Made by a program: the position numbers and the translations under genes | From: Metabacillus flavus | GTDB taxonomy: Bacteria; Bacillota; Bacilli; Bacillales; Bacillaceae | DNA length: 64,000 nucleotides | Assembly (NCBI RefSeq): GCF_018283675.1 | Contig: NZ_JAGVRK010000001.1 | Location: forward strand, 310,001 to 374,000 | Direction of reading: 5' to 3' | In this document: piece by piece, positions 798 to 38,242 of the stretch | Position numbering within the stretch: the first letter of the stretch is position 1 | Layout of the letters: each line of letters starts with the position of its first letter | Notes under the pieces: model-generated | Seen by the model: the letters and a program-made list of their open reading frames with translations, nothing else | Told to the model about the DNA's origin: nothing | The model's database searches: none

Positions 798-1652
798 ATG
801 ATCGAACAAATAATGGTTGCCGGCTCCGGGGTTATGGGAAGAGGCATCGCCTATGTAGCCGCTGCAGGCGGCTTTCAGGTTGTGCTGGCAGATGTGAAGG
901 AAGAAGCACTGGAGAGTGCCAAACAAGAAATCGATGGCATCTTTTATAAGGCGCTTAGCCGGGAAATCATGACGGAGGTTCAGGCTGCTGAAGCAAAGGG
1001 TCGACTGGTCTATTCCACAAGCCTTGAAGAGGCGGCAAAGCAAGCCGACCTGATAATAGAAGCTGTTCCTGAGAAAAAAGAAATCAAGCAGGCGGTTTTT
1101 GAGATACTTGACGCGAATGCACCGGCCCATTGCCTTTTTGCCACGAATACCTCGACGATGAGCCCGACCGAAATCGGATCCTTCACAAAGCGGCCGGAAA
1201 ACGTCATTGCGATGCACTTTTTCAATCCTGTACATAAAATGCCCCTCATCGAGATCATCAGAGGCCTTGAAACGAGCGATGAGACGGCTGAAGCGATTCA
1301 GGCTGCTGCCAAAAGAATGAAGAAGGAAACCGTCCTGATCAATGAATTCCCGGGGTTCGTCACAAGCAGGATCAGTGCCCTCGTCGGAAACGAAGCGTTT
1401 TACATGCTTCAGGAAGGCGTCGGTACAGCAGAAGAAATCGATAAAGCAATCCGTCTCGGATTGAACTATCCGATGGGGCCGTTTGAGCTCGGGGACCTCG
1501 TCGGACTGGATACAAGGCTGAACAACCTGAATTACCTGCACGAAACGCTTGGGGAAAAATACAGGCCGGCACCGCTCCTCGTTCAATACGTGAAAGCAGG
1601 AAGACTGGGACGTAAATCAGGGAAAGGCGTTTATGACTATACGGAAAAGTAA
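798..1652 (+). CDS. paaH: 3-hydroxyacyl-CoA dehydrogenase (PaaH-like)
   Basis: This 284-residue protein has the NAD-binding GxGxxG (G9-S-G-V-M-G14) and the catalytic His140 in AMHFFNP, and ends with the FELGDLVGLD helical dimerisation domain. The length equals single-function 3-hydroxybutyryl/3-hydroxyadipyl-CoA dehydrogenases. It should oxidise a 3-hydroxyacyl-CoA to the 3-oxoacyl-CoA in the cytoplasm. The start ATG follows AAAGGGGGAAA by about 7 bases. It is the first gene of a set with a thiolase (15-base gap), an enoyl-CoA hydratase and PaaX, which is the lower phenylacetate pathway and supports the PaaH role (3-hydroxyadipyl-CoA). A 3-hydroxybutyryl-CoA dehydrogenase of another beta-oxidation route would look the same by sequence. 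Confidence 0.88.
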   Translation: MIEQIMVAGSGVMGRGIAYVAAAGGFQVVLADVKEEALESAKQEIDGIFYKALSREIMTEVQAAEAKGRLVYSTSLEEAAKQADLIIEAVPEKKEIKQAVFEILDANAPAHCLFATNTSTMSPTEIGSFTKRPENVIAMHFFNPVHKMPLIEIIRGLETSDETAEAIQAAAKRMKKETVLINEFPGFVTSRISALVGNEAFYMLQEGVGTAEEIDKAIRLGLNYPMGPFELGDLVGLDTRLNNLNYLHETLGEKYRPAPLLVQYVKAGRLGRKSGKGVYDYTEK

Positions 1653-1667: not shown

Positions 1668-2864
1668 GTGCATGAAGCAGTCATTGTTGATGCCGTCCGG
1701 ACGCCGATCGGCCGGTATAAAGGGGCTTTAAAAACCGTTCGGCCGGATGATTTAGGTGCGATTGTCATAAGAGGACTTCTTGAACGGAACAAAGGGGTTG
1801 AAGGCATTGAAGAAGTCGTATTCGGATGCGCGAACCAGGCGGGAGAGGATAACCGGAACGTCGCGCGCATGTCCGCGCTTCTTGCCGGTCTGCCTGTTGA
1901 AACTGCTGGCACCACCATCAACCGGCTGTGCGGTTCAGGACTTGATGCCGTAAACTATGCGGCAAGGGCCATTTTAGCAGGGGAAGGGGATATATACATT
2001 GCGGGCGGAACGGAAAGCATGACGCGCGCGCCATTCGTGATGGGCAAGCCGGAATCTGATTTTCCAAGAGGAAGCATGGAGCTGCTGGATACAACCATCG
2101 GTTGGCGCTTTATCAATAGAAGGCTGGAAGAGAAGTACGGCACGGATTCCATGCCAGAAACGGCCGAAAACGTAGCGCAGCAGTTTGGCATCACAAGAGA
2201 GGAACAGGATCAGTTTGCCTATGAAAGTCAGATGAAAGCGGCAAAAGCAATGGAAAGCGGCAGGTTTCAGCAGGAAATCATTCCTGTTTCCATCCGCGAC
2301 CGAAAAGGAAATGAACATTTGGTGGTTCAGGATGAACATCCCCGTCCGGAAACGGTTCTCGAAAAACTGGCGTCACTCAAGCCGCTGTTTCCGGATGGTA
2401 CCGTAACAGCAGGAAATGCATCCGGAGTAAATGACGGGGCGGCTGCCCTGCTGATGATGAGCTCAGAGAAAGCGAGAGAGCTTGGATTACAGCCGCTCGC
2501 AAAATACAAGGTTTCCGCAGTTGCCGGTCTCGAACCGTCCATCATGGGAATGGGACCGGTGCATGCTGCGAAAAAAGCGCTGTCCCGAGCCGGCCTAACC
2601 GTCGGCGCTATTGGACTGACAGAACTGAATGAAGCCTTCGCATCTCAATCGCTTGCATGTATAAATGAACTGGGATTGGACCGGCACAAGGTCAATGTAA
2701 ACGGCGGCGCCATTGCGTTCGGCCACCCCCTTGGAGCAAGCGGAGCCCGAATTTTAACAACCCTTTTATACGAAATGAAAAGGCAGCGCGTTCAATTCGG
2801 ACTCGCCGCCATGTGTGTCGGCGTAGGGCAGGGTATTGCGACAATTATTGAAAACATTGAATAG
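1668..2864 (+). CDS. paaJ: Thiolase / 3-oxoadipyl-CoA thiolase-like acetyl-CoA acyltransferase
   Basis: This is a 398-residue thiolase with acyl-accepting Cys88 in NRLCGSG, His353 in FGHPLGASG and the second catalytic Cys383 in MCVGVGQG. It is a full-length, intact thiolase. The start is GTG, preceded by AAAGGAGG. It should cleave a 3-oxoacyl-CoA with CoA, releasing acetyl-CoA; in the phenylacetate pathway this would be 3-oxoadipyl-CoA or its dehydrosuberyl precursor. The substrate is inferred from position between the paaH-like and hydratase genes and from the downstream paaX. Confidence 0.87.
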
Positions 2865-2875: not shown

Positions 2876-3652
2876 TTGAAAAACCTGATTTTTGAAAAGA
2901 AAAACGGAATTGCGTATGTCACCCTGAACCGTCCCGAATCGCTGAACTGCTTTAACTTTGAGATGCTGTCTGAGCTCGGTGTATTGACTGAGGAACTTCG
3001 TCATGACCGGGAAATCAGGGTTGTCATTTTTACAGGGGCTGGCGATAAATCCTTCAGCTCCGGCGCTGATTTAAAGGAAAGACGCACACTTGGCGAGGAT
3101 GACGTTCGGCGCAATGTGCTCAAAATCAGAACCGTTTTTCATGAAATCTCCAAGCTCCCTCAGGTGACCATTGCGGCAGTCAACGGCTATGCATTTGGCG
3201 GAGGATTCGAGCTGATGCTTGCCTGTGATTTCCGTCTTGCAGCCGGCCATGCAAAAATGGGCCTGACGGAAACAAGCTGGGCTATCATTCCGGGAGCGGG
3301 AGGAACACAGCGCCTGCCGCGTTTGATTGGCGAAGCCCGGGCAAAGGAACTGATTCTGACCGCCCGAAAAATTGATGCCGAACAGGCTTATAAGTACGGT
3401 ATTTTAACAAAGACAGTCCCGGGACCGGAATTGATGAAGGAGTGCGAGCACCTCGCCCAAGAAATTTTAAGAAACGGACCCGTTGCAGTGGAGCAGGCAA
3501 AATACGCCATCAGTGCTGGAATGGAAACGGATTTGGAGAGCGGACTGAACATTGAAGCGGAAGCATACGAGCAAACCATTCCAACCTATGACAGAAGAGA
3601 AGCCCTCCTCGCCTTTTCCGAAAAACGGACTCCCGAATTTATGGGCAAGTAA
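2876..3652 (+). CDS. paaF: Enoyl-CoA hydratase/isomerase (PaaF/PaaG-like)
   Basis: A 258-residue crotonase-fold protein. Both general acid/base glutamates are visible: Glu112 in FGGGFELM and Glu132 in GLTETSW, followed by PGAGGTQRLPR. The FSSGADLKE segment supplies the oxyanion-hole region. The start is TTG with GGAGG 8 bases upstream and only 11 bases after the thiolase, so it is co-transcribed. It hydrates or isomerises an enoyl-CoA in the cytoplasm. Both PaaF (2,3-dehydroadipyl-CoA hydratase) and PaaG (ring 1,2-epoxide isomerase) belong to this fold; two catalytic Glu residues favour a hydratase. Confidence 0.85.
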   Translation: MKNLIFEKKNGIAYVTLNRPESLNCFNFEMLSELGVLTEELRHDREIRVVIFTGAGDKSFSSGADLKERRTLGEDDVRRNVLKIRTVFHEISKLPQVTIAAVNGYAFGGGFELMLACDFRLAAGHAKMGLTETSWAIIPGAGGTQRLPRLIGEARAKELILTARKIDAEQAYKYGILTKTVPGPELMKECEHLAQEILRNGPVAVEQAKYAISAGMETDLESGLNIEAEAYEQTIPTYDRREALLAFSEKRTPEFMGK

Positions 3653-3722: not shown

Positions 3723-3738
3723 GAGAGTAGTGAACGCA

Positions 3739-4632
3739 ATGAACAGCACCATCAACACGAGATCGATGATCTTTACTTTATACGGAGATTACATCCGCCA
3801 TTACGGCAATGAAATATGGATCGGGAGCCTGATCCGCCTCCTCAAGGAATTCGGGCACAACGAACAGTCAGTACGCGCCGCGATTTCAAGAATGAACAAG
3901 CAGGGCTGGGTAACATCCAAAAAAATCGGCAACAAAAGCCACTACTTTTTAACTGAACGCGGCTCCATCCGGATGGAGGAAGCAGCCAAACGAATCTTCA
4001 AGCTCAGCCCCGATCAATGGGACGGCAAATGGCGGCTATTCATCTATTCCATCCCCGAAGAAAAGCGCGCCATCCGCGACGAACTGCGCAAAGAACTCGT
4101 CTGGAGCGGATTCGGAACCATGGCCAACAGTTGCTGGGTTTCCCCAAACGAACTGACGAAAGAAGTCTATGCCCTAATGGACAAATACGAAATCCGTCCC
4201 TATGTTCACTTCTTCGTATCCCAATACGACGGACCCCATGAAAACAAAAAGCTCGTCGAAGAATGCTGGGACTTAAACGAAATCAACAACCGCTACGAAG
4301 CCTTTATCGCCGAATACAGCCAGAAGTACATCATCGACAAAAACAAAATCCAAAAAGGCGAAATGACCGACGCCGAATGCTTCGTCGAACGCACAAAGCT
4401 CGTCCACGAATACCGCAAATTCCTATTCAGCGACCCCGGCCTCCCAGAAGAACTGCTCCCTGAAAAATGGCTTGGCAGCCACGCCGCCTCCCTTTTCAGC
4501 AGCTACTACCGGGAACTAGCCGAACCGGCCAGCCGCTTCTTTGAAGAGGTGTTCCAAGAGGGCAATGAGCTGACCAATAAGGATTCCGAATATGATGTGT
4601 TTCAGCATCCTTTGCTGGTGGAGGAGAAGTAG
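3739..4632 (+). CDS. paaX: PaaX-family phenylacetate-responsive transcriptional repressor
   Basis: This protein of about 297 residues starts at an ATG; an in-frame GTG at 3730 is possible, and no strong ribosome site decides between them. The N-terminal winged helix reads TRSMIFTLYGDYIRHYG with a recognition helix around SVRAAISRMNKQGW, followed by KSHYFLTERG, which is the classic PaaX N-terminal domain. The C-terminal half is the PaaX ligand/dimer domain (GFGTMANSCWVSPN). Characterised PaaX proteins repress phenylacetate genes and are released by phenylacetyl-CoA. It probably controls the upstream paa genes and perhaps the phenylalanine operon 5 kb downstream. A TTGACA/TGTCAA palindrome lies directly upstream. 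Confidence 0.9.
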   Translation: MNSTINTRSMIFTLYGDYIRHYGNEIWIGSLIRLLKEFGHNEQSVRAAISRMNKQGWVTSKKIGNKSHYFLTERGSIRMEEAAKRIFKLSPDQWDGKWRLFIYSIPEEKRAIRDELRKELVWSGFGTMANSCWVSPNELTKEVYALMDKYEIRPYVHFFVSQYDGPHENKKLVEECWDLNEINNRYEAFIAEYSQKYIIDKNKIQKGEMTDAECFVERTKLVHEYRKFLFSDPGLPEELLPEKWLGSHAASLFSSYYRELAEPASRFFEEVFQEGNELTNKDSEYDVFQHPLLVEEK

Positions 4633-5181: not shown

Positions 5182-6150
5182 ATGAACAGACTATGCGAAA
5201 TTCTAAATATCGAAGTTCCCATCATCCAAGGAGGAATGGGCAACATCAGCAATGCGCAGCTGACTGCGGCTATTTCAGAGGCTGGAGCGCTTGGGACGAT
5301 TGGAGCGGGTACCCGCTCGCCGGAGGAGGTGGAGAGGATCATATTGGAGACGAAGGAGCGGACGGAACGCCCTTTTGCAGTAAATATTGCTCTTTCCGTG
5401 TCCGGGCATGCAAAGGGAATTGCTGAGCTGATTGTTAAGCATAAGGTGCATGCTGTATCGCTTTCTGCCGGAAATCCGGCTGCATTCGCCCCATACTTCA
5501 AAGAGCATGGAGTAAAGGTGCTGTCGGTAACGGCTTCTGTGAAACAGGCGAGGAAGGCAGAGGCGATCGGAGCGGATGCAGTGATCGGTGAAGGCTATGA
5601 AGCGGCAGGATTGAATTCGCCGTTTGAGACGACGACTTTGACTTTAATTCCCCAGCTTGCAGATGCTGTAGGAATTCCCGTAGCCGCTGCCGGCGGGATC
5701 GGCGATGGCAGAGCTCTTGCCGCAATGCTTGCCCTTGGAGCGGAAGGGGTTCAGATGGGCACGCGTTTTATTGCGACGAAGGAAGCGCCGTTTTCTCCTC
5801 TTTATAAAGAGCGTATTCTTGAGGCGGATGATGAGGGGACGATGATTATTGGACGGTCAGTTGGACGGGTGAGAAGAGTCCTGAAGAATCCTTATACGGG
5901 CCTGATCATCGAACGGGAGCGCGAGGGGATGACGCTTGAAGAATACAATAAACAAACAAATGAGGATTTCCATATTGCAGGTGCCATTCATGGCAATGAG
6001 CAAGAGGGGTATTGGAACAGCGGCCAAATTGCCGGGTTGATAAAAGAGGTTCCTTCAGTAAAGGATTTAATCTTGGGTATGAAGCAAGAAATGGAGGAAA
6101 CGATTGGCAGACTGGGTGTTTATCGGGCACAGTCTACCCGTATAGAATAA
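5182..6150 (+). CDS. FMN-dependent nitronate monooxygenase / FabK-like enoyl reductase family protein
   Basis: A 322-residue TIM-barrel flavoprotein: N-terminal IIQGGMGNISNAQL, central GEGYEAAG, phosphate-binding AAAGGIGDGRALAA and GAEGVQMGTRFIATKE. These are the 2-nitropropane dioxygenase/FabK fold. The stretch that in FabK and class I nitronate monooxygenases reads EAGGH has no histidine here (EAAGLNS), so the exact reaction is uncertain. The ATG follows GAAAGGAG. It stands alone between the repeat region and an ABC transporter operon with its own promoter. It could be a quinone/enone reductase or a diverged nitronate monooxygenase. Confidence 0.8.
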   Translation: MNRLCEILNIEVPIIQGGMGNISNAQLTAAISEAGALGTIGAGTRSPEEVERIILETKERTERPFAVNIALSVSGHAKGIAELIVKHKVHAVSLSAGNPAAFAPYFKEHGVKVLSVTASVKQARKAEAIGADAVIGEGYEAAGLNSPFETTTLTLIPQLADAVGIPVAAAGGIGDGRALAAMLALGAEGVQMGTRFIATKEAPFSPLYKERILEADDEGTMIIGRSVGRVRRVLKNPYTGLIIEREREGMTLEEYNKQTNEDFHIAGAIHGNEQEGYWNSGQIAGLIKEVPSVKDLILGMKQEMEETIGRLGVYRAQSTRIE

Positions 6151-6288: not shown

Positions 6289-7284
6289 ATGGGGAAGAAA
6301 ACGAGAGTGTGGCTGGGTATGGCAGTGGCAGCCGGTCTAATTTTAAGCGGCTGCGGTAATAAGGAAGGTGCTTCCGGAGAAACCGGCGGCGATGGTGCGG
6401 GCAAAACGTATAAAATCGGTGTTACCCAGATTGTCGAGCATCCATCCTTGGATGATGCTTATAAAGGATTCAAAAAAGCACTTGAGGATAAGGGGATTAA
6501 AGCAGAATTTGATGTGAAGAATGCCCAGGGCGATGCCAGTACGAATACGACGATCGCAACGACCCTTGTAAGCCAGAAGCCAGATCTCATCTTTGCGAAC
6601 TCCACACCAAGCTCCCAGGCAGCATTAAGTGCTACGAAAGACATTCCGATCATCTTCAGCTCTGTGACAGATCCGGTCGGAGCTGAGCTGGTCGCCTCTC
6701 TTGATAAACCGGGCAGCAATGTAACGGGCACCATTGATTCTCACCCTGAAGCCATTCCAAGTACAATGAAATTTATTAAAGACGAGCTTGGCGGCAAAAA
6801 AGTAGGCATGCTTTACAATGCCGGCGAGCAGAACTCTGTATCCCAGGTTGAATCGGTTAAAAAGCTAATGGGAGAAATGGACCTTGAGCCGGTCACTGCT
6901 TCTGTTTCCACAACCGCAGATGTGAAGCAGGCTGCTGAATCATTAGCCGGAAAAGTGGATGCATTTTATATCGTAACCGATAATACGGTGATATCAGCTA
7001 TTGAGTCCGTCGTCTCGGTTTCAAATGACAAAAAAATTCCGCTGCTGACAGCTGACCTCGATTCTTTGAAACGGGGCGCTTTCGCGGCATACGGATTCCA
7101 ATATTATGATATCGGATACCAGGCAGGCGAAATGGCTGCGCAGGTCCTTGAAGGAAAAAAACCAGGCGAGATCGCAGTTGAAGTGCCTGGAAAGCTGAAG
7201 CTCATGATGAATAAAAAAGCTGCGGAAGCCATGGGAATTGAAATCAAACCGGAATGGGACAAAATGGCGGAATACACGGAATAA
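6289..7284 (+). CDS. ABC transporter substrate-binding lipoprotein (TrpX-like)
   Basis: 331 residues with a lipoprotein signal: positively charged MGKKTR, a hydrophobic stretch and lipobox LSGC (Cys about residue 22), so it is anchored outside the membrane. The mature part is the periplasmic-binding fold of the ABC_sub_bind family (YKIGVTQIVEHPSLD, PIIFSSVTDPVGAELV, GTIDSHPEAIPS). The family includes TrpX of streptococcal tryptophan transporters. It precedes a permease by 19 bases and an ATPase, making a complete importer. Lying between paa genes and a phenylalanine dehydrogenase operon, an aromatic amino acid or aromatic acid is a plausible cargo; that is inference. Confidence 0.88.
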   Translation: MGKKTRVWLGMAVAAGLILSGCGNKEGASGETGGDGAGKTYKIGVTQIVEHPSLDDAYKGFKKALEDKGIKAEFDVKNAQGDASTNTTIATTLVSQKPDLIFANSTPSSQAALSATKDIPIIFSSVTDPVGAELVASLDKPGSNVTGTIDSHPEAIPSTMKFIKDELGGKKVGMLYNAGEQNSVSQVESVKKLMGEMDLEPVTASVSTTADVKQAAESLAGKVDAFYIVTDNTVISAIESVVSVSNDKKIPLLTADLDSLKRGAFAAYGFQYYDIGYQAGEMAAQVLEGKKPGEIAVEVPGKLKLMMNKKAAEAMGIEIKPEWDKMAEYTE

Positions 7285-7303
7285 CAGTTAGGGGCGATTC
7301 AGA

Positions 7304-8353
7304 ATGTTTTCTGCATTATTCGGTTCAGTAGAATTGGGCATTATTTATGCGATTATGGCGCTCGGTGTCTATCTTTCCTTCCGGGTGCTGGATTTCCCTG
7401 ACCTGACCGTAGACGGAAGCTTTGTAACGGGTGCCTCTGTGGCAGCCGCCATGATTGTCCTGGGGTTTAATCCGGTTGCTGCGACCGCTGCATCGATTGC
7501 GGCCGGCTTCGCAGCAGGATGTATGACGGGGGTTCTGCATACAAAAGGGAAGATCAATCCGCTTCTTTCAGGAATTTTAATGATGATTGCCTTGTATTCC
7601 ATTAATCTGCGGATTATGGGAACGACGTCCGAAACGTCAATCGGGATTCCGAATATCCCGTTGCTAAACTCGGAAACGATTTTCACATCCATCTCTGATT
7701 TTTCAAAGAATATCGGCATTGACGCTCCTCTGAACAGCCTGTTCTCAAGTTTAGGTCTAGGGGACAGTCTCCCTTCCGGATGGGGCATCCTGCTTTTCAT
7801 GCTGATCGTTACATTTTTCATCAAATGGCTGACGGACCGTTTCCTTAAAACAGAAACAGGCTTAGCGATTCGGGCAACCGGTGACAATCAGCGGATGATC
7901 CGGAGCTTTTCAGCCAATACGGACTCCCTGATCATTTTGGGGTTGGGTCTATCAAATGCACTTGTTGCCCTGTCCGGAGCGCTCGTTGCCCAATATGCCA
8001 AGTTTTCGGACATCGGCATGGGGATTGGAATGATTATTATTGGTCTCGCATCTGTCATTATCGGCGAAGCCATATTCGGAACAAAAACGATTGCGAGAAC
8101 AACGCTTGCCGTCATTGGCGGGGCGGTCATTTACCGCATCGTGATTAGTCTCTCTCTTCAAGTCGAAGGGCTGGATACCGGTGATCTGAAGCTGATTACC
8201 GCAGTGATTGTTATTTTTGCCCTCATCATGCCAAAGATGCTGGAACAGCGCCGCCAAAAGAAACGAAAAGCGCGGAGATACAAAGAACGGATGCAAGACC
8301 TTCACGGTGTAAACGGAGAGGGGGAGGCCATTGCTGCATCTAAAGCAGATTAA
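7304..8353 (+). CDS. ABC transporter permease (TrpY-like, branched-chain type)
   Basis: 349 residues, very hydrophobic, with about eight to ten membrane helices, starting with MFSALFGSVELGIIYAIMALGVYLS and containing the FPDLTVDGSFVTGA and ETGLAIRATGDN motifs of the BPD_transp_2 family. The C-terminal tail is basic (QRRQKKRKARR) and cytoplasmic. It is the membrane channel partner of the preceding lipoprotein and the following ATPase, and its 3' end overlaps the ATPase start by 23 bases. Confidence 0.88.
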   Translation: MFSALFGSVELGIIYAIMALGVYLSFRVLDFPDLTVDGSFVTGASVAAAMIVLGFNPVAATAASIAAGFAAGCMTGVLHTKGKINPLLSGILMMIALYSINLRIMGTTSETSIGIPNIPLLNSETIFTSISDFSKNIGIDAPLNSLFSSLGLGDSLPSGWGILLFMLIVTFFIKWLTDRFLKTETGLAIRATGDNQRMIRSFSANTDSLIILGLGLSNALVALSGALVAQYAKFSDIGMGIGMIIIGLASVIIGEAIFGTKTIARTTLAVIGGAVIYRIVISLSLQVEGLDTGDLKLITAVIVIFALIMPKMLEQRRQKKRKARRYKERMQDLHGVNGEGEAIAASKAD

Positions 8354-9128
8354 CAAGATTTTTAACGAAGGAACACTCGATGAAAAAATAGCGCTCGATT
8401 CAATCAACCTTTCGCTGAAAAAGGGAGATTTCGTTACCATCATCGGAAGCAATGGAGCCGGTAAATCAACGGTAATGAACGTGATTTCCGGCGTCCTGCC
8501 GCCCGATACCGGTATCGTTGAAATTGAAGGGAAGGACGTAACCGTGCTTCCTGAATACAAGCGTTCCAAACTGATCGGGAGGGTTTTCCAGGACCCGATG
8601 GCAGGAACAGCGCCCTCTATGACTATTGAGGAAAATCTGGCGATGGCTTATTCAAGGAACAAAAAACGGGGATTTGGAACAGCGGTCACAAGAAAACGCC
8701 GTGACTTCTTCAAAGAGTCGCTCGAATCGCTGCATCTCGGTCTGGAGAATCGGATGAATGCCAAAGTGGGCATGCTTTCCGGTGGTGAGAGACAGGCGCT
8801 CTCCCTGCTGATGGCGACCTTTACAGAGCCTTCGATTCTTTTGCTGGATGAGCATACGGCAGCACTGGATCCGTCCAGAGCGGAGCTGATTACCAATTTA
8901 ACAAGGGAAATTGTCAGCAAATACGGACTGACGACCCTTATGGTGACCCATAATATGCAGCAGGCACTGGACCTTGGCAACCGGCTGATTATGATGGATA
9001 AAGGGCAGATTATTTTATCAGTGGATGAAGAGAAGAAAAAAGAGCTGACCATTGAAAAACTTATGAGAGAGTTTCAAAGAATACGGGGCGAGCAGATGGC
9101 AAATGACCGGGCGCTGCTGAACGCATGA
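8331..9128 (+). CDS. ABC transporter ATP-binding protein (TrpZ-like)
   Basis: A 265-residue ATPase with Walker A GSNGAGKST (39-47), signature LSGGERQA, Walker B LLLDEHTAALD and the H-loop MVTHN. The TTG start is served by GGAGAGGGGG and overlaps the permease gene, which implies translational coupling. It drives the transporter formed with the two preceding genes. A terminator ends the three-gene operon. Confidence 0.9.
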   Translation: MLHLKQINKIFNEGTLDEKIALDSINLSLKKGDFVTIIGSNGAGKSTVMNVISGVLPPDTGIVEIEGKDVTVLPEYKRSKLIGRVFQDPMAGTAPSMTIEENLAMAYSRNKKRGFGTAVTRKRRDFFKESLESLHLGLENRMNAKVGMLSGGERQALSLLMATFTEPSILLLDEHTAALDPSRAELITNLTREIVSKYGLTTLMVTHNMQQALDLGNRLIMMDKGQIILSVDEEKKKELTIEKLMREFQRIRGEQMANDRALLNA

Positions 9129-9131
9129 AAG

Positions 9132-9156
9132 GAAGGAGTAAAATCCTTCTTTTTTT
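9132..9156 (+). terminator. Terminator of ABC transporter operon
   Basis: GAAGGA-GTAAAA-TCCTTC is followed by a T-run of about eight, immediately after the ATPase stop. Confidence 0.75.
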
Positions 9157-9186
9157 GATTGAAAATTATATAACGAAATGATAAGA

Positions 9187-9225
9187 TTGCGTTAAATAAA
9201 CGTTATTAACAATTATTGTAACATT
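9187..9225 (+). promoter_or_regulatory. AT-rich upstream region of the phenylalanine operon with inverted repeats
   Basis: ACAAT-T-ATTGT (9209-9219) is a perfect inverted repeat, and CGTT-AAATA-AACG lies just upstream. TAACAT at 9219-9224 could be a -10 box, but no clear -35 pairs with it. No sigma-54 -24/-12 pattern was found, unlike bkd operons. It is a candidate operator only. Confidence 0.3.
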
Positions 9226-9257: not shown

Positions 9258-9665
9258 ATGAAAAAGGGGATGGAGCTTGGCTGCCAGGCTGCCTGCGAAG
9301 TGATGGTTACACCGGATATGTACGCTCAATTTGAAGGGAAGGTTGTTCATCCCGTCTATTCCACTGTCTCGATGGTGCACAGTATGGAGTGGGCATCGAG
9401 GAAGATCATTCTTCCTTTTTTGGAGGATTCAGAAGAGGGAATGGGAGCCTCGGTAAAGCTTAAGCACATTGCGCCTGCGGGTGAGGGATCGCTTGTACGG
9501 GTGGTCGCAACGCTTGTGAAAAAAGAGAGAAACCTTGTTTACACGGATGTTGAAGCCTATTCGGAAAACCGGCTTATCGGAAAGGGAGAAGTGGTTCAGG
9601 TCATCCTGCAGAAAGAAGAAATCTCTTCAAAAATTCAGCAGGCTCTTAAGGGAGGAAGAAAATGA
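9258..9665 (+). CDS. FlK-like hotdog thioesterase
   Basis: A 135-residue hotdog-fold protein. Its [13 protein letters not shown] and LKHIAP segments align with fluoroacetyl-CoA thioesterase FlK, keeping all three catalytic positions with the same spacing: Thr36, Glu44 (8 later) and His70 (26 later). It should hydrolyse an acyl-CoA. The gene overlaps phenylalanine dehydrogenase by ATGA, so it is the first gene of this six-gene operon. A likely role is editing or releasing CoA from acyl-CoAs made by the downstream 2-oxoacid dehydrogenase; this is inferred from context, and the substrate cannot be read from sequence. Confidence 0.82.
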
Positions 9666-10810
9666 AAGCGTTTACTTTATTGGAGAACCGGGGGACAGCA
9701 GGAATGGATGTATTCGCTAAAATCAGCGGACACGAGCAAGTGGTCTTCTGCAACGATCCCCATACAGGGTTAAAAGCCATAATCGCCATACATAACACGA
9801 CTCTCGGTCCGGCACTTGGAGGATGCAGAATGCTGCCATATGCCAGCATAGGTGAAGCGGTGAATGATGTTCTGCGGCTATCCAGGGGCATGACTTATAA
9901 ATGCGCCGCAGCGGATGTGGATTTTGGCGGGGGGAAATCCGTTATTGTGGGGGATCCGCTGACAGACAAATCACCTGAAATGTTCCGGGCCTTCGGGCAG
10001 TTCGTTGAATCGCTAAGTGGAAGGTTTTATACAGGAACGGATATGGGCACAACACCGGAGGATTTCGTTCATGCTTCGAAAGAAACGCGTTGCATCGTCG
10101 GCATTCCTGAAGAATACGGCGGCAGCGGTGATTCATCGGTTCCAACTGCGCTTGGAGTAATTTATGGCATAAAAGCCACGAATAAGGCGGTTTGGGGAGA
10201 TGATGCGCTGCAGGGAAGAGTTTATGCCATTCAGGGTCTTGGGAAGGTCGGCTTCAAGGTGGCGGAGCGTCTTCTTGAGGAAGGAGCAGACGTCTTCGTG
10301 ACTGATATCAACGAAGCAGCGATTGAACTGCTGAATCAAAAAGCAAAAGGGCTACCGGGATCGGTTAAGGCGGTGAAGGGTGACGAAATTTATGCAGTGG
10401 ATGCTGATGTTTTCGTTCCGTGTGCCCTTGGAGGAATAATCAATGATCATACGATCGGGATGCTGAAGGTGAAGGCGGTAGCGGGCTCTGCCAATAATCA
10501 GCTTGAAAGGGAGGAGCACGGCGGGGACCTTTGGAGAAGGGGAATCCTTTATGCTCCGGACTACATCGTGAATGCCGGCGGGCTGATTCAAGTGGCCGAT
10601 GAGCTGTACGGTACGAATAAGCAGCGGGTGCTGACGAAAACAAAAGCCATTTACACCTCCCTTTTAGAGGTCTACAAACATTCCGAGGACCGGAGCATTT
10701 GTACAGCAGAAGCCGCGGATCTTTTCTGTGAACAGCGGATTGAAGCAAGGAAGAATCGCAGCAGCTTTTTTACGGCCGATCAGAAACCGAAGTGGAACGT
10801 TAAACGATAA
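9662..10810 (+). CDS. pdh: Phenylalanine dehydrogenase
   Basis: This 382-residue protein belongs to the Glu/Leu/Phe/Val dehydrogenase family. It resembles bacillary phenylalanine dehydrogenases (about 380) more than leucine dehydrogenase (about 365): [29 protein letters not shown] and the C-terminal KPKWNVKR are PheDH-type words. Catalytic residues are Lys80 (MTYK), Lys92 (GGGK) and Asp127 (GTDMG); the NAD Rossmann motif is GLGKVG at 192-197. It converts L-phenylalanine + NAD+ to phenylpyruvate + NH4+ + NADH. It overlaps the thioesterase and lies 15 bases ahead of the 2-oxoacid dehydrogenase E1alpha, which would consume the keto acid. Activity on other hydrophobic amino acids is possible. Confidence 0.92.
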
Positions 10811-10825
10811 CGCGGAGGGGAAAGC

Positions 10826-11896
10826 ATGGAAAACGGATTTGAAATGATTCAGATTATGGATGAAAACGGGAATCTTGTAAACGAGGAATTTAAATCCTTT
10901 ATCTCAGAGTCTCTTACAAAGGAAATGTATGAAAAAATGATTCTCGTACGGACGTTTGACCGAAAAGCGATTTCTCTTCAAAGGCAGGGGCGGCTTGGCA
11001 CGTATGCTCCGTTTGAAGGCCAGGAAGCGGCGCAGGTCGGCAGCGCTTCTGCTCTCAAGGAACGAGATTGGCTCTTCCCGACCTACCGTGACCATGCCGC
11101 CACCATTACATTTGGCCATTCGCTTCCTCATGTTCTTTTGTATTGGAACGGAAGAATGGAAGGCTGCACCGTTCCAAGCGGGAAACGAATTTTTCCGCCG
11201 GCTGTACCGATCGCCACCCAGCTTCCGCATGCGGCTGGCGCGGCGCTGGCCGAGAAGCGCAGAGGAACCGGGAATGCCGCTATCGTTTACTTTGGCGATG
11301 GTGCGACCTCTGAAGGAGATTTCCATGAAGGACTCAACTTTGCGAGTGTGTTTAAATCTCCGGTTGTCTTTTTTAATCAAAATAATCATTTCGCCATTTC
11401 CGTTCCCATTGAAAAGCAGATGAATTCCCGCACCATCGCGCAGAAATCTGTTGCCTACGGCATTCCGGGATACAGAATTGACGGCAATGATATCTTCGCG
11501 GTTTATTTTTATACAAAACAGGCTCTTGAACGCGCACGGAAAGGCGAGGGGCCGACATTGCTTGAGGCTGTGACATGGAGGTACGGGGCCCATACCACAG
11601 CGGACGATCCGAAGAAGTACAGAGATCAGGAGGAGAGCCTGAGCAAAAAGAGGACGATCGATCCGCTTCTGCGGCTTGAGCGCTATATGAAAAATGAGGG
11701 AATCTGGGAGGACGAATGGGCCGATCAGGTGCAAAAGGAAGCAGAGGAACAGATCGAAGGAGCCGTTGCCGAAATGGAAGCCTTCTCTCCGCCTGATGTC
11801 AATGATTTGTTTGACCATGTATTTGCAGAGCCAACCTGGACGATTCGGGAGCAGAAGGAAGAATACATGAACCAAATAAGAGGTGCTGGCCGATGA
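10826..11896 (+). CDS. 2-oxoacid dehydrogenase complex E1 component, alpha subunit
   Basis: 356 residues. The thiamin-diphosphate motif GDG-x26-NN is exact (GDG at 157-159, NN after 26 residues), with the family words RQGRLGTYAPFEGQEAAQVG and FPTYRDHAA. It forms a heterotetrameric E1 with the next gene and decarboxylates a 2-oxo acid. Sequence alone does not separate pyruvate from branched-chain or aromatic substrates; position directly after phenylalanine dehydrogenase suggests phenylpyruvate. Strong AGGGGA ribosome site. It overlaps E1beta by ATGA. Confidence 0.87.
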   Translation: MENGFEMIQIMDENGNLVNEEFKSFISESLTKEMYEKMILVRTFDRKAISLQRQGRLGTYAPFEGQEAAQVGSASALKERDWLFPTYRDHAATITFGHSLPHVLLYWNGRMEGCTVPSGKRIFPPAVPIATQLPHAAGAALAEKRRGTGNAAIVYFGDGATSEGDFHEGLNFASVFKSPVVFFNQNNHFAISVPIEKQMNSRTIAQKSVAYGIPGYRIDGNDIFAVYFYTKQALERARKGEGPTLLEAVTWRYGAHTTADDPKKYRDQEESLSKKRTIDPLLRLERYMKNEGIWEDEWADQVQKEAEEQIEGAVAEMEAFSPPDVNDLFDHVFAEPTWTIREQKEEYMNQIRGAGR

Positions 11897-12894
11897 GTAT
11901 GGAAATGAGAGTGAAAACGAACAAGCTGACAATGGTTCAGGCTGTTACGGACGGTCTCCGGACGATGCTTCAAAAGAAGGAAGAAGTGGTGCTTCTCGGA
12001 GAGGATATCGGCAGCAATGGGGGAGTCTTCCGGGCAACCGAAGGACTGATGGAGGAATTTGGGGAAGAGCGGGTGATGGATACCCCGCTAAGTGAAGCGG
12101 GACTTATGGGGACAGCAATCGGTATGGCCATCAATGGAATGATTCCGGTAGCAGAGATTCAGTTCCTCGGCTTTATCTATCCGGCCTACGAGCAAATCGC
12201 CACACATGCGACAAGAATCCGGATGAGAACGATGGGGGAATACACGGTTCCAATGGTGATCCGCGCTCCGTACGGTGCCGGAATCAGGGCGCCGGAAATT
12301 CATTCTGACAGCGCAGAAGCCCTGTTTACCCACATGCCTGGAATGAAGGTTGTTTGTCCGTCCTCTCCCTATGATGCAAAAGGTTTGCTCATCGCAAGCA
12401 TCGAAGATCCAGATCCCGTTCTCTTCCTAGAACCGTTAAAGCTTTACCGGGCAGGCAAGGAAGAGGTGCCGGAAGGTGAATACAGAGTGGAAATCGGGAA
12501 AGCGGCCAGGCGGCGAGAGGGCAGCGATGTGACCCTGATCGCTTGGGGAGCGATGGCAGCCCAGGCCTCCAAGGCCGCTGAGAAGCTTGAGCAGTCAGGA
12601 GTCAGCTGTGAGGTCATTGATTTAAGAACGCTCTATCCGCTTGATAAAGAAGCCATAGCCGAATCTGTGCAGAAAACAGGCAGAGCGGTCATCGTTCAGG
12701 AAGCGCATGCTACAGGGGGACTTGCGAATGACGTGATGGGTGTTATCAATGATACGTCTTTTCTGTACTTGCGGGCACCGATTACAAGAGTGAGCGGTTT
12801 TGATGTACCTGTTCCATTTTTTTCGCTGGAGGAGCACTATCTGCCTGACACGGAACGAATCATTCAGGCTGTTGAAAAAGTCATTCACTATTAA
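11893..12894 (+). CDS. 2-oxoacid dehydrogenase complex E1 component, beta subunit
   Basis: 333 residues of the transketolase-like E1beta family: LGEDIGSNGGVFRATEGL, DTPLSEAGLMGTAIGMA, EIQFLGFIYPAYEQI and the C-terminal transketolase domain with EVIDLRTLYPLD and VQEAHATGG. It completes E1 with the preceding alpha subunit, with which it shares an ATGA overlap. Unlike most PdhB proteins annotated for central metabolism, it sits in a catabolic operon with its own E2 and E3. Confidence 0.88.
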   Translation: MSMEMRVKTNKLTMVQAVTDGLRTMLQKKEEVVLLGEDIGSNGGVFRATEGLMEEFGEERVMDTPLSEAGLMGTAIGMAINGMIPVAEIQFLGFIYPAYEQIATHATRIRMRTMGEYTVPMVIRAPYGAGIRAPEIHSDSAEALFTHMPGMKVVCPSSPYDAKGLLIASIEDPDPVLFLEPLKLYRAGKEEVPEGEYRVEIGKAARRREGSDVTLIAWGAMAAQASKAAEKLEQSGVSCEVIDLRTLYPLDKEAIAESVQKTGRAVIVQEAHATGGLANDVMGVINDTSFLYLRAPITRVSGFDVPVPFFSLEEHYLPDTERIIQAVEKVIHY

Positions 12895-12912
12895 AGGGAG
12901 GCGGGTGAAAAG

Positions 12913-14091
12913 ATGCTGGAAGTCAAGCTTCATGATATTGGAGAGGGCATGACGGAGGGAGACATTCTTCACTATTTCGTTAAACAGGGAGAGAGAGTCG
13001 AACGGGATCAGCCGCTGATCGAAGTGCAAACGGACAAAATGACGGCGGAGCTTCCTTCTCCAGGAGCGGGTATGGTGAAAGAAATCCTGATTGATCCAGG
13101 GACAACGGTATCAGTAGGAACGACACTTCTTGTCATTGAGACAGATGAAACGGATGCTGTCCAATTAAAGGAAAGCACTCCTGAGACCCGGCCGGTTTCA
13201 GCCAGGGTGCTCGCCACTCCTTTTACGAGAAAGCTTGCAAGGGAAAACCGGATTGATATTGAAAAGCTCAAGGGCTCCGGACCTGCAGGAAGAGTGACAG
13301 ATGAAGATGTATTGGGATTGGCAGCGAAGCAAAAGCAGCCGGAACCGGTGAAGGTAGCGCCTGTGGCAGAAAAAAAACGGATCACAAAAGCAAATCATGG
13401 TGAAAAGCAGACCATTCCATTCAAGGGCAGAAGGAAACAAATCGCGAAGAAAATGGTTCATTCCCTCAAGACGATTCCGCATGTTACCCATTTTGAAGAA
13501 GTGGATATGACAGAGCTGATGACCTTCAGAAAGGAACTAAAGGAAGCGGGCCGCTCCATTTCGGCCGCCGCTTTTTTCATCAAGGCTGCTGCCATTGCAT
13601 TAAAGGACTTTCCTGTATTCAACGCCAAACTCGATGAAGAACAGGAAGTCATTGTCCTTGAATCGGAGTACAATATCGGCCTTGCCGTTGATTCGCCGGA
13701 TGGGCTGATTGTTCCAGTGCTGCAGCAGGTGGAAACGAAATCAATCCTTGAAATTCATAAAGAGATGAAGGAACTGAACGAAAAAGCGAGAGAAAACCGT
13801 TTGAGCCGGGCGGAGCTTACGGGCGGAACGTTCACCATCAGCAACGTTGGACCGCTTGGAAGCATAGGAGCAACTCCTGTCATTAATCATCCGGAAACAG
13901 GATTAATGGCCTTCCATGCGACAAAGGAAAAGCCTGTTGTCCGAAACGGGGAGATTGTGATTGGTTTAATAATGAACGTGTCCATGTCCTTCGACCACCG
14001 GGTCGCGGACGGAGCAGCGGCAGTCGCGTTTACAAACCGGTTTAAAGAACTGATTGAACATCCAAAATTGCTGATTGTGGAGCTGGTGTAA
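12913..14091 (+). CDS. 2-oxoacid dehydrogenase complex E2, dihydrolipoamide acyltransferase
   Basis: 392 residues in the standard order. One lipoyl domain (1-80, lipoylated Lys42 in QTDKMTA) is followed by a linker, a peripheral subunit-binding domain (about 94-135, TPFTRKLARENRIDIEKLKG) and a catalytic acyltransferase domain ending in SFDHRVADG (His362, Asp366). It transfers the acyl group from lipoamide to CoA, which would give phenylacetyl-CoA if E1 uses phenylpyruvate. The stop codon overlaps the E3 start (TAATG). Confidence 0.9.
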   Translation: MLEVKLHDIGEGMTEGDILHYFVKQGERVERDQPLIEVQTDKMTAELPSPGAGMVKEILIDPGTTVSVGTTLLVIETDETDAVQLKESTPETRPVSARVLATPFTRKLARENRIDIEKLKGSGPAGRVTDEDVLGLAAKQKQPEPVKVAPVAEKKRITKANHGEKQTIPFKGRRKQIAKKMVHSLKTIPHVTHFEEVDMTELMTFRKELKEAGRSISAAAFFIKAAAIALKDFPVFNAKLDEEQEVIVLESEYNIGLAVDSPDGLIVPVLQQVETKSILEIHKEMKELNEKARENRLSRAELTGGTFTISNVGPLGSIGATPVINHPETGLMAFHATKEKPVVRNGEIVIGLIMNVSMSFDHRVADGAAAVAFTNRFKELIEHPKLLIVELV

Positions 14092-15524
14092 TGGTAGTTG
14101 GAGAACTGGCGCAGGAAAGAGAACTGGTCATCATCGGCGGGGGACCCGGAGGCTATACAGCGGCAATCCGGGCCGCACAGCTTGGTAAGGAAGTTACCCT
14201 GATTGAAAAGGGGGACCTTGGCGGTGTTTGCTTAAATCAGGGCTGTATCCCATCGAAGGTGCTCGTCCATGTATCAGCCAAGTATGGAGAGCTTTCTAAA
14301 ATAGGCGGCTTAGGCATCAGCATGTCGGACGTATCATTTGATCTTTCTCAAACCGCTGAATACAAACATCAAGTGACAGCCAATTTGAGAAAAGGAGTGG
14401 AAGCGCTGTGCCGGCAGCATAAGGTAGAGCTGGTCAGCGGGAAAGCCTCGTTTTTATCCGATGATCGGATCGGAGTGGAGAACGGAGATGATTTTCAGGT
14501 CTACTCATTCAAAGCAGCCATCATTGCAGCCGGAACCTCCCCTGTTTCTCATCCAGCCGCTGCAGTAGATCCACCATATATTCTGGATTCGAGATCCCTG
14601 TACAGCCTGGAAAGTCTGCCGGAGCATCTGATTTTATATGGAAACGATTATACGGCGATTGAAGCGGCATTCAGCTACCGGATTTTAGGCTGTGAGGTCA
14701 CCCTGGTTCATGAACACGGGTTTTCGGGACTGGATGCTTCCATAGAAAAAGAGCTTTTGAGGGTCATGAAAAAAGCAAAAATCAAGTGGAAGAAAGGAAT
14801 GATGCTCAAGCAAGCCGTGAAACAGGAGGGCATCCTGAAAGCTGTATTTATAGCAGATGATGGAACAGAGCTTGAACTTGAAGGAACGCATCTTTATTTA
14901 CAGACGGAGTTTCAAGGCAACTCAGAGGAGCTTGGGCTAAACCGCCTTGGCATTAAAACAGATTCCCGGGGCTTTGTGCAGATTGACCGGGAGTGCCGGA
15001 CATCGCTATCTAATATTTGGGCTATTGGTGATATCACCGGCGGAAAGCTGCTGGCTGTTAAAGCAATCAGTCAGGGGAAAGCCGCCGCCGCTTCCATTGC
15101 CGGACTCCCAGCCGAATGGAATGACGGGTTCATTCCAATGGTCATCCGAAGCCAGCCGCCAATCGCTTGTGCGGGGTTAACAGAAGAAGAAGCGAAAGCT
15201 GAGGGATACAAGGTAAGGACGGGCGTGTTTTCTTTTGCCGGAAACGGCTTTGCTTCTCTTGCAGGGCAAAAAGACGGCTTTGCCAAAGTAGTTTCTGATG
15301 CAGAAAATGAGGTCATTCTTGGCGTCCACTTAATGGGCAACGGAGCGGCTGAATTGATCAGCACCGGAATCACCGCGCTTGAAATGGCGGCGAGGGAGGA
15401 AGACTTATCGTTCCCTCTCTATCCGCACCCAAGCATGAATGAAGGGCTGCTCGAAGCGGTAGAGGATCTCGCAGGACTCGCCATCCACAAGCCTCCTTCA
15501 AAAGAGCTTGCCCGCCAGCGTTAA
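14091..15524 (+). CDS. Dihydrolipoyl dehydrogenase (E3)
   Basis: 477 residues: FAD-binding GGGPGG (16-21), redox pair Cys47-Cys52 in GGVCLNQGCIPSK, FAD motif NIWAIGDITGG and the C-terminal catalytic His-x4-Glu (HPSMNE). It re-oxidises dihydrolipoamide with NAD+. Having its own E3 makes this operon a self-contained complex. The ATG overlaps the E2 stop, and a strong terminator follows. Confidence 0.92.
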   Translation: MVVGELAQERELVIIGGGPGGYTAAIRAAQLGKEVTLIEKGDLGGVCLNQGCIPSKVLVHVSAKYGELSKIGGLGISMSDVSFDLSQTAEYKHQVTANLRKGVEALCRQHKVELVSGKASFLSDDRIGVENGDDFQVYSFKAAIIAAGTSPVSHPAAAVDPPYILDSRSLYSLESLPEHLILYGNDYTAIEAAFSYRILGCEVTLVHEHGFSGLDASIEKELLRVMKKAKIKWKKGMMLKQAVKQEGILKAVFIADDGTELELEGTHLYLQTEFQGNSEELGLNRLGIKTDSRGFVQIDRECRTSLSNIWAIGDITGGKLLAVKAISQGKAAAASIAGLPAEWNDGFIPMVIRSQPPIACAGLTEEEAKAEGYKVRTGVFSFAGNGFASLAGQKDGFAKVVSDAENEVILGVHLMGNGAAELISTGITALEMAAREEDLSFPLYPHPSMNEGLLEAVEDLAGLAIHKPPSKELARQR

Positions 15525-15537: not shown

Positions 15538-15565
15538 ACCCCCGGGACAATCCCCGGGGTTTTAT
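15538..15565 (+). terminator. Terminator of the phenylalanine/2-oxoacid dehydrogenase operon
   Basis: CCCCGGG-ACAATC-CCCGGGG is followed by TTTTAT, 15 bases after the E3 stop. Confidence 0.85.
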
Positions 15566-22662: not shown

Positions 22663-22684
22663 GGGGAAAATTAAACGATTTGCA

Positions 22685-22800
22685 CCTTCATATATCCTCG
22701 ATAATATGGTTCGAGAGTCTCTACCGGATTACCTTAAATGATCTGACTATGAAGGCAGAATACAGTCTGTAAAAAGCTGGAATTCTGCCTTCTTATATTT
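22685..22800 (+). promoter_or_regulatory. Purine (guanine-type) riboswitch upstream of guaA
   Basis: P1 CCTTCATA (22685-22692) pairs with TATGAAGG (22748-22755). The conserved words ATAATATGG, TCTCTACC and CCTTAAATG are present. The discriminating base in GACTAT is C (22747), the guanine-specific choice. The following terminator GAAGGCAGAAT (22751-22761) / ATTCTGCCTTC (22782-22792) shares its first five bases with the 3' strand of P1, so aptamer and full terminator compete. Confidence 0.9.
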
Positions 22801-24492: not shown

Positions 24493-24511
24493 TATAAGTG
24501 AATAGGTAATA

Positions 24512-24661
24512 CGTCGTATAATATTGGGGATATGGCCCGAGAGTTTCTACCAAGCTACCTTAAATGGCTTGACTACGGCGATAGGACGGATGCGTATTTT
24601 GCGCATTCATTGTATCGTAAACGGTCAAGCGCTTTCTGTATTTATACAGAGGCGCTTTTTG
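24512..24661 (+). promoter_or_regulatory. Guanine riboswitch upstream of pbuG
   Basis: Aptamer 24512-24580: P1 CGTCGTA / TACGGCG, conserved GATATGG, AGTTTCTACC and CCTTAAATG, and the guanine-specific C24573. A separate terminator hairpin (AAGCGCT..ATACAGAGGCGCTT, 24627-24657) followed by a T-run lies downstream, as expected for a transcription-off switch. Confidence 0.93.
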
Positions 24662-30690: not shown

Positions 30691-32235
<1,545 letters not shown>

Positions 32236-32320
32236 AAGAATTATCAGCACCCATGTGGTGCACAATTAACGGACGCACTTCGATTTTGTTTAGTTTTGAG
32301 AGATCATTCTCTCTATAAAC

Positions 32321-32335
32321 TTGTTCTTTGAAAAC
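32321..32335 (+). promoter_or_regulatory. boxA-like antitermination site in 16S-23S spacer (operon 1)
   Basis: TTGTTCTTTGAAAAC, the Bacillus boxA pattern, lies between 16S and 23S. The spacer contains no tRNA. Confidence 0.6.
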
Positions 32336-32473
32336 TAGATAACGATATGAATGTCAAACATTCACACGAGTAAGCAAGTAACCTTACGATTTTCTTCTGC
32401 GCTTGCGTATGAAGAGAACATCAAGTCTGAAAACATCTGTTTTCAGCTCTAACGAAGATAACTTCCGTTATCA

Positions 32474-35398
<2,925 letters not shown>

Positions 35399-35473
35399 TT
35401 TATTCAAGTAAGGCTGCTTCACTCGTGCAGCACATCGTTATCTAGTTTTGAAAGAGCAATCTTTCAACATATA

Positions 35474-35590
<117 letters not shown>

Positions 35591-35593
35591 CAC

Positions 35594-35630
35594 GAAAAAA
35601 GGCTTGCCCCTTAGGGGGTGAGCTTTTTTG
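35594..35630 (+). terminator. rRNA operon 1 terminator
   Basis: AAAGGCTTGCCCC-TTA-GGGGGTGAGCTTTTTT directly after 5S. Confidence 0.85.
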
Positions 35631-35632
35631 TT

Positions 35633-35940
35633 TGGATTTGGGGTAGAGGGATACGCTTGGGTTTGAGGGAGAAAAAAGATTGCCGCAGTGTGTTCTCAGG
35701 ATACGCTTTGGGTGGGGGAAGCCACGAAGATTAGTAGATACTCATTCGGAACAGCCTCTGATGGGATATATCAATATGGAGGAAGGATAAATTCCCCACC
35801 TGGTAAGTGTGTTAATCAAGATAGCGGAGTTTGTTTTGGAGCATGGGGAGCTGAATTTTATGCAGCAGAGGTGTGCAAGAATCACCATGGACTTTTGTTT
35901 TAGATCATTTAAAAATAATTAAAAGCACAATGTCAAAATG
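35633..35940. other. Gene-free region downstream of rRNA operon 1
   Basis: No supported gene. GGATACGCTTTGGGT, ATACTCATT and ATGGACTTTTGTTTTAG also occur in similar form after operon 2, suggesting the two downstream regions share ancestry. A 71-codon open frame (35688-35903) has no recognisable features or ribosome site. Confidence 0.45.
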
Positions 35941-35978
35941 AAAAGCTAAGTGATCTATTACCTCACCTAGCTTTTTTT
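35941..35978. terminator. Bidirectional terminator before the PhnB-like gene
   Basis: AAAGCTA..GTGA / TCAC..TAGCTTT followed by a T-run on the plus strand; on the minus strand it would end the PhnB-like transcript. Confidence 0.7.
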
Positions 35979-36022
35979 GTAATGTTTTATATTTGGTGTA
36001 AGGTATTATGATCTTCTGTCTT

Positions 36023-36472: not shown

Positions 36473-36552
36473 AATTTTCTGCCTCCTTATTGTTATGTAA
36501 GTAGTATAATAGACGATAGGTGACAGGAGTATGTCGTATATAGGAGCGAGTT

Positions 36553-38182: not shown

Positions 38183-38242
38183 TAAACAAATCGAAGTGCC
38201 AACGTTAATTCAAGAGCAACAAACAAGAGCTAGTCAAACTAC

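Follow-up and report, generated by a model that had tools for sequence, protein, structure and literature searches.

In Streptomyces pristinaespiralis, PglB and PglC of the pristinamycin L-phenylglycine pathway are said to convert phenylpyruvate to phenylacetyl-CoA in the available excerpts of two reports (PMC7089894, PMC10685826), the indolepyruvate/phenylpyruvate:ferredoxin oxidoreductase IorAB transforms aryl-pyruvates into aryl-acetyl-CoA according to the available part of PMC5109826, and the accessible sections of PMC7497051 describe for Phaeobacter inhibens a direct passage from phenylalanine through phenylpyruvate to phenylacetyl-CoA. The operon described here belongs to Metabacillus flavus and lies in a stretch of 64,000 nucleotides (the window, C1:310001-374000 of the 4.03-Mb genome). 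It very probably constitutes a phenylalanine-funnelling module, in which a phenylalanine dehydrogenase (PheDH) and a dedicated E1-E2-E3 2-oxoacid dehydrogenase complex would supply phenylacetyl-CoA to the phenylacetate (paa) genes. The pgl system resembles this operon in its pyruvate dehydrogenase (PDH)-like alpha and beta subunits and in the thioesterase of its operon, but it serves antibiotic biosynthesis and, as described there, has no E2, E3 or PheDH; its phenylacetyl-CoA is turned into phenylglycine, with the paa operon as a competitor. IorAB carries out the identical net step to the proposed complex, but is an unrelated, ferredoxin-linked enzyme. Ior is reportedly the enzyme of the conversion in P. 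inhibens. The bcd-bkd operon, which combines leucine dehydrogenase (LeuDH) with branched-chain 2-oxoacid dehydrogenase (BCKDH), resembles the window operon in pairing an amino acid dehydrogenase with an E1-E2-E3 of its own, and differs from it in its branched-chain substrates, its ptb/buk genes and the absence of a paa link. The M. flavus genome has a bcd-bkd-like locus of its own (C1:2400000-2414000), with Buk-like and Ptb-like open reading frames (ORFs). No description of a PheDH and a PDH-like complex feeding paa in Bacillales was found in the open-licence PMC literature, and the available portions of PMC9728165, PMC8305020 and PMC5897657 contain nothing on such a module. The chemistry itself is known from PglB/C and IorAB; the novelty would lie in a catabolic complex that is widespread and dedicated to the step from phenylpyruvate to phenylacetyl-CoA.

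Organisation and enzymes of the operon

The operon shows six genes on the forward strand between 9258 and 15524, identified by ORF and profile search and encoding, in this order, an FlK-type thioesterase, PheDH, E1alpha, E1beta, E2 and E3 (Table 1). From the thioesterase onward, the junctions are a 4-base overlap, a 15-base gap, a 4-base overlap, an 18-base gap and a 1-base overlap, which confirms the tightly packed PheDH-E1alpha-E1beta-E2-E3 operon of the original prediction (no gap exceeds 18 bases); the start that it gave, 9258, is that of a gene it had left unnamed, the thioesterase, whose closest solved structure is 2cwz (E 1e-27). The stem found downstream of E3 comes from a scan that lists 30 terminator-like sites over 18.3 kb, where shuffled sequence gives 21.3, and a short stem followed by a T run around 9130-9157 was spotted by eye and is absent from the scan output. 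Given these two stems, the operon looks like a transcription unit of its own and not a continuation of the paa genes, co-transcription being read from gene spacing. A promoter-like site at 9159-9187, ahead of the thioesterase gene, is weak on its own, since the region holds 20 such sites against 17.3 in shuffles.

By alignment, all 14 residues of the Bacillus badius active site are kept in the window PheDH (14/14), including the catalytic K78, K90, D125 and N276 and the pocket residues F86, G123, V144 and L306 (B. badius numbering). The positions were taken from the available part of PMC8543943, and the protein of B. badius NBRC 15713 (locus L173), used as a reference check, agrees with the published numbering at all 14. 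A LeuDH-like paralogue in the M. flavus genome has L, A, T and V at the four places of the pocket where PheDH has F, G, V and L. Twelve of the 14 positions are invariant among 100 rows of the PheDH group, L50 and V144 being variable; two of the 102 rows, the LeuDH-like protein of M. flavus and one L200 row, were excluded from this count. Leucine dehydrogenase identity was considered and rejected: among solved structures, LeuDH is overall closer to the protein than the Rhodococcus PheDH is, but the pocket residues are of PheDH type. The enzyme is thus taken to be a phenylalanine dehydrogenase (EC 1.4.1.20) with putative NAD-linked activity, as judged from active-site identity. B. badius NBRC 15713 shows the same operon as the window without the thioesterase, and its PheDH is presented as a biocatalyst in the accessible literature. 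An Lrp/AsnC-type regulator gene (L173:9148-9603) directly precedes PheDH in this strain, at the place where most loci have the thioesterase.

The complex contains the E1 thiamine diphosphate (ThDP) motif and catalytic His, the E2 lipoyl Lys, peripheral subunit-binding domain (PSBD) and DHRxxDG, and the E3 CxxxxC, which we take to be the motifs that mark an active alpha2beta2-type 2-oxoacid dehydrogenase complex. The catalytic His of E1beta is position 137, within EIHSDS. Equivalents of the PDH E1 active-site residues Tyr102alpha, Ile206alpha, His271alpha and His128beta, given in the available part of PMC2663715, are all present in the window E1 by alignment. E1alpha retains Tyr87, Ile191 and His256, and at position 59 (LGTYAP) Thr replaces the Phe seen in every PDH row compared. 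Outside the tyrosine-type rows described below, 106 of 107 clade rows have Thr59 (the exception is L138; L197, L199, L200 and L210 are among the 107 and all have Thr59); so do seven of seven tyrosine-type rows and 35 of 36 rows of a second, partly overlapping set, whose remaining row has a gap. Phe occupies this position in eight of eight PDH rows (1w85, LGFYAP) and eight of eight BCKDH rows, each set consisting of seven rows from the organism's own genus and one structure, with six distinct sequences. Thr59 aligns with Phe66 of the Thermus chain, numbered from its printed start, which presumably borders the substrate pocket; no text on such a role of Phe66alpha was found in literature searches. 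The fork separating the clade in the E1alpha tree has a support of 87/97, not starred, and the two outgroup rows of this tree, on very long branches, limit what it can say about the clade's place among all PDH families.

Association with the phenylacetate genes

The distribution of PheDH, the E1alpha clade and PaaA was scanned in 397 Bacillales genomes of 135 genera. PheDH was found in 154 genomes of 58 genera (E up to 1e-118), the E1 clade in 164 genomes (170 matches at 1e-105, of which six weaker than 1e-120 were dropped) and PaaA in 166 genomes (178 matches, 12 of them under the curated cut-off and dropped). PheDH and the E1 clade occur jointly in 141 genomes and all 141 hold PaaA; pairwise, E1 and PaaA coincide in 155 genomes, that is, in 155 of the 164 with the clade, and PheDH and PaaA in 144. 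E1 and PaaA without PheDH are present in 14 genomes, PheDH and PaaA without E1 in three, E1 alone in nine and PaaA alone in eight. Within the organism's own family, the PheDH clade was found in six of 80 genomes at 70% identity or more.

Gene order was compared in the best 80 of 554 confirmed loci, whose genera include Rossellomorea, Fictibacillus, Cytobacillus, Mesobacillus, Pontibacillus, Parageobacillus and Anoxybacillus. In 77 of the 80, B. badius (L173) included, PheDH has E1alpha behind it on the same strand, at a distance of at most 1 kb; the three exceptions show no E1 (L161), a contig end (L171) and a rearrangement (L175). Together with PaaA in every genome holding both enzymes, this order bears out the conserved pairing of operon and paa genes whose search had been proposed as a check. 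Within the fetched stretches, PaaX was found in 71 loci, a nitronate-monooxygenase (NMO)-like protein in 76, TrpX in 61, the thioesterase in 75, E3 in 71 and some paa gene in 71; four of the nine loci that lack any paa gene (L155, L169, L171 and L175) are cut short. Three further loci (L194, L195 and L196) keep paaX, the thioesterase, E1alpha, E1beta and E2 (E3 in two of three) and have no PheDH, so that the link of the complex to paa persists even where deamination must fall to another enzyme. One record, titled Pseudomonas sp. ISL-84, holds a locus (L152) grouping with Cytobacillus and is for this reason probably mislabelled or mixed.

A 22-base motif, AACAAAATGnTATnATAACGTT, was obtained with a Gibbs sampler from 27 dereplicated upstream regions of the thioesterase gene and reaches 17.5 bits, against 9.3 to 9.5 bits in four shuffled sets run with fewer seeds and rounds. 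It was tested in 20 clusters outside the training loci, some maybe of the same species as training loci, and no PaaA upstream region was trained on. Matches of at least 8 bits are present upstream of PaaA in 18 of 20 cases and of the thioesterase in 11 of 13, against 22 of 312 for all other genes pooled: TrpX 5/14, NMO 4/18, PaaC 3/20, E1alpha 3/20, PheDH 2/19, PaaX 2/20, and 0 or 1 for the rest. AACGTTA-type words show observed counts of 16/20 for PaaA (expected 1.1), 8/13 for the thioesterase (0.8), 5/14 for TrpX (1.2) and 5/20 for PaaX (1.7). The 82 kb around the window contain 12 sequence windows of at least 9 bits: the best match is the one ahead of the thioesterase, the next distinct match (14.1 bits) lies between paaK and paaA, and the remaining ones, of 9.7 to 12.5 bits, have no evident link. 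No match of 9 bits was found before paaK in these 82 kb. The gene position of paaX makes its product the likely binder of the shared motif.

Substrate of the complex

The conversion of phenylpyruvate to phenylacetyl-CoA put forward in the original prediction is supported, at the level of sequence, by five lines that this prediction had not used: the PheDH active site, the co-occurrence and synteny with PaaA, the motif shared with paaA, the change from Phe to Thr in E1alpha and the clade members located beside aminotransferase and 4-hydroxyphenylacetate genes. Phenylalanine would enter through the TrpX-type transporter and be deaminated by PheDH to phenylpyruvate and NADH; the E1-E2-E3 complex would then decarboxylate phenylpyruvate and transfer the phenylacetyl group to CoA, giving NADH and phenylacetyl-CoA at no cost of ATP, and the PaaABC epoxidase would act on the product, its epoxidation being the established pathway. 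Phenylacetyl-CoA would probably lift repression, likely by PaaX, of both the paa genes and the operon through the shared site, which is seen as sequence. The thioesterase would probably clear surplus or dead-end CoA thioesters, and PaaK of the cluster would serve free phenylacetate.

Clade members without paa genes were found in 11 fetched loci (L197 to L206, and L210), and six of the nine genomes with E1 and neither PheDH nor PaaA were fetched. Seven of the 11 (L198 and L201 to L206) are of tyrosine type: a HisC-type aminotransferase gene precedes E1alpha in the same orientation, an esterase and a transporter of the NhaC family are encoded as well, and six of the seven, all except L198, also show HpaG-type and CHMI proteins. 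Profiles identified in L201 the HisC family, HpaG of N- and C-type above cut-off and CHMI, and in L204 an NhaC transporter above cut-off. The gene order of L201, L202 and L205 is aminotransferase, E1alpha, E1beta, E2, NhaC-type, esterase, HpaG, HpaG and CHMI, and no E3 was found within these three clusters (G246, G167 and G416). The aminotransferase and 4-hydroxyphenylacetate genes beside E1 point to 4-hydroxyphenylpyruvate as the putative substrate, and the esterase might hydrolyse the CoA ester to free 4-hydroxyphenylacetate. Among the other loci, L197 is a 6.3-kb contig with a piece of PheDH, L199 has no telling neighbour genes, and L200 contains an amino acid permease and a dehydrogenase that shares 52% identity with the window PheDH and has Y, G, V and L in the pocket. 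The genome of L210 (G121) has three matches to the E1alpha clade.

It is rather likely that, alongside PDH and BCKDH, a separate class of 2-oxoacid dehydrogenase complex exists in Bacillales, an aryl-pyruvate dehydrogenase with Thr for Phe at one E1alpha position. One branch would lead from phenylalanine through PheDH to paa, and the other from tyrosine through the HisC-type aminotransferase to 4-hydroxyphenylacetyl-CoA, hydrolysed by the neighbouring esterase, and on to homoprotocatechuate degradation; profile libraries would call both pyruvate dehydrogenase. The aminotransferase in seven of seven and the Hpa genes in six of seven tyrosine-type loci slightly raised our confidence in this class. 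A broad enzyme, acting alike on phenylpyruvate, 4-hydroxyphenylpyruvate and indolepyruvate and serving several aromatic amino acids rather than mainly phenylalanine, is a possibility that we consider doubtful, and it would refine the phenylalanine-funnelling module rather than exclude it. The tyrosine-type neighbourhoods of the same clade and the resemblance of the transporter to the tryptophan-binding TrpX speak for such breadth, but the partner in the window is PheDH and the pathway is paa, and the tyrosine-type rows form a group of their own in the E1alpha tree (support 88/92, not starred).

That the complex is a second PDH or BCKDH, placed beside PheDH and the paa genes by chance, is improbable. 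E1alpha scores above the TIGR03181 PDH equivalog cut-off (411.35 bits), its closest solved structure is the PDH E1alpha 1w85, and L210 is a clade relative adjoining ptb-buk; the M. flavus genome, however, already has separate PDH-type and BCKDH-type (bkd) operons, PaaA accompanies the clade in all but nine of its genomes, Phe is changed to Thr at position 59 across the clade, and the operon has its motif in common with paaA. Highly improbable is a biosynthetic PheDH with a complex making phenylacetyl-CoA for another use, such as a secondary product or a fatty-acid primer: the enzyme is used in vitro for reductive amination (available part of PMC8543943), but its surroundings of transporter, paaX and paa genes are catabolic, and the motif common to operon and paaA also argues against this use.

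The original prediction had the phenylpyruvate decarboxylase and phenylacetate-CoA ligase steps avoided, which needs correcting for the ligase. No phenylpyruvate decarboxylase was found among the three TPP_enzyme_N proteins of the genome, which score above cut-off as pyruvate oxidase, MenD and acetolactate synthase; its sole POR-domain protein scores as the alpha subunit of a 2-oxoacid:acceptor oxidoreductase (C1:1923438). The ligase route is retained, and replacement of paaK in this genome was ruled out, as paaK sits in the cluster. Among the 155 genomes with PaaA and the E1 clade, 27 have no PaaK match at 1e-100, and 24 of these hold PheDH; G204 and G319 have PaaA with neither PaaK nor the E1 clade. 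Inspection of 21 clusters from the 27 genomes without such a match (L195 and L213 to L232) showed neither PaaK-like pieces nor a FadD-type ligase within the stretch in 16, one of which, L230, has only 224 bases visible before paaA.

Several observations weigh against the phenylalanine-funnelling module. Besides the E1alpha score above the PDH cut-off, paaK is present in the same cluster as the operon, and PaaK is no less frequent in genomes with the clade (128 of 155) than in those without it (9 of 11; p = 1), so that the 27 genomes without a PaaK match are consistent with a bypass and do not prove it. The apparent loss of PaaK is also weaker evidence than it first seemed: of the 21 inspected clusters, two contain PaaK-like pieces (L216, and L213 close to where the stretch ends), and in three of one genus (L227, L228 and L229, g26) a CoA ligase of FadD type, some 508 aa long, adjoins paaA in the usual place of PaaK. 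Ten genomes have PheDH without E1 or PaaA, and the Fisher test of co-occurrence (p < 1e-65) ignores shared ancestry. Because a -10-like box falls within the motif, part of its score may reflect the promoter. In L210, one of the two E1alpha genes has genes for butyrate kinase and phosphotransbutyrylase next to it, a neighbourhood of branched-chain style that suggests acyl-CoA energy conservation, and Thr59 by itself may not signal an aryl substrate, since this member also has it.

Gene neighbourhood and significance

Upstream of the operon, PaaH, the thiolase and the hydratase are the tail of a paa cluster that starts before base 1 of the window, and the presence of these genes and paaX in the direction of the operon agrees, by ORFs and profiles, with what had been predicted. 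Going upstream from base 1, the cluster contains an aldehyde dehydrogenase gene, paaG, paaF, an EthD gene, paaD, paaC, paaB, paaA and paaK. Of the paaABCDE set expected there, paaA to paaD are thus present, and the PaaE reductase was not found in the genome (best match 85.5 bits, cut-off 420.8). PaaA and PaaX are above their NCBIfam cut-offs and PaaB and the PaaD zinc ribbon above their Pfam cut-offs; PaaK, PaaF, PaaG and the thiolase are below their NCBIfam cut-offs, PaaH was assigned by family and position and PaaC by position only. In those inspected clusters that show paaD, the next gene encodes an EthD-type protein of roughly 100 aa. The NMO-like flavoprotein is kept near the phenylalanine genes in the 76 loci counted above, and we know of no role for it in the paa pathway. 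The TrpX-type transporter is probably an aromatic amino acid uptake system, as far as its profile matches indicate. Four clusters without TrpXYZ (L114, L173, L216 and L218) contain a protein of the sodium:neurotransmitter-symporter family, which includes bacterial aromatic amino acid transporters. Elsewhere, the window contains three purine riboswitches (22668-22769, 24494-24595 and 44743-44844) and two rRNA operons (30691-43138).

Table 1. Features of the phenylalanine operon and its upstream region, in window positions.
Feature	Position	Strand	Evidence and remarks
3-Hydroxyacyl-CoA dehydrogenase (PaaH)	798-1652	+	Family and position
Thiolase (PaaJ)	1668-2864	+	Below NCBIfam cut-off
Enoyl-CoA hydratase	2876-3652	+	Profile search
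PaaX, phenylacetyl-CoA-responsive repressor type	3730..4632	+	TIGR02277, 358.8 bits (cut-off 264.55)
NMO/FabK-like flavoprotein	5182..6150	+	Pfam NMO, 6.9e-65
TrpX-type ABC transporter (binding protein, permease, ATPase)	6289..9128	+	TrpX 257.2 bits (NCBIfam), under cut-off 390; Pfam
Operator-like motif AACGAAATGATAAGATTGCGTT	9172..9193	+	Overlaps promoter-like site; best match, 25.4 bits
FlK-type hotdog acyl-CoA thioesterase, 135 aa	9258..9665	+	Operon gene 1; Pfam FlK PF22636, 2.4e-32
L-Phenylalanine dehydrogenase (PheDH)	9662..10810	+	Active-site residues as in B. badius PheDH
E1alpha, proposed phenylpyruvate dehydrogenase	10826..11896	+	TIGR03181, 484.8 bits; ThDP motif
E1beta	11893..12894	+	Profile match; aligned to 1w85/3duf beta; EIHSDS at 135-140
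E2 dihydrolipoyl acyltransferase (lipoyl domain, PSBD, catalytic core)	12913..14091	+	TDKM, TPFTRKLARE, DHRVADG
E3 dihydrolipoyl dehydrogenase	14091..15524	+	TIGR01350, 395.4 bits, slightly below cut-off 408.8; CxxxxC
Terminator-like stem after E3, 7 G-C pairs and T run	15540..15559	+	Terminator scan

The operon gives a physiological context to the Bacillus-type PheDH, an enzyme studied as a biocatalyst. The proposed route would be an ATP-free entry to the phenylacetyl-CoA pathway yielding two NADH, in place of a decarboxylase, an aldehyde dehydrogenase and a ligase, and the database label of pyruvate dehydrogenase would hide this shortcut into aromatic degradation. If the relatives score like the window E1alpha, up to 164 of the 397 sampled Bacillales genomes would hold a misnamed complex, for which one residue could serve as a test. 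This would be of direct use for metabolic modelling and for aromatic biotechnology in Bacillaceae.

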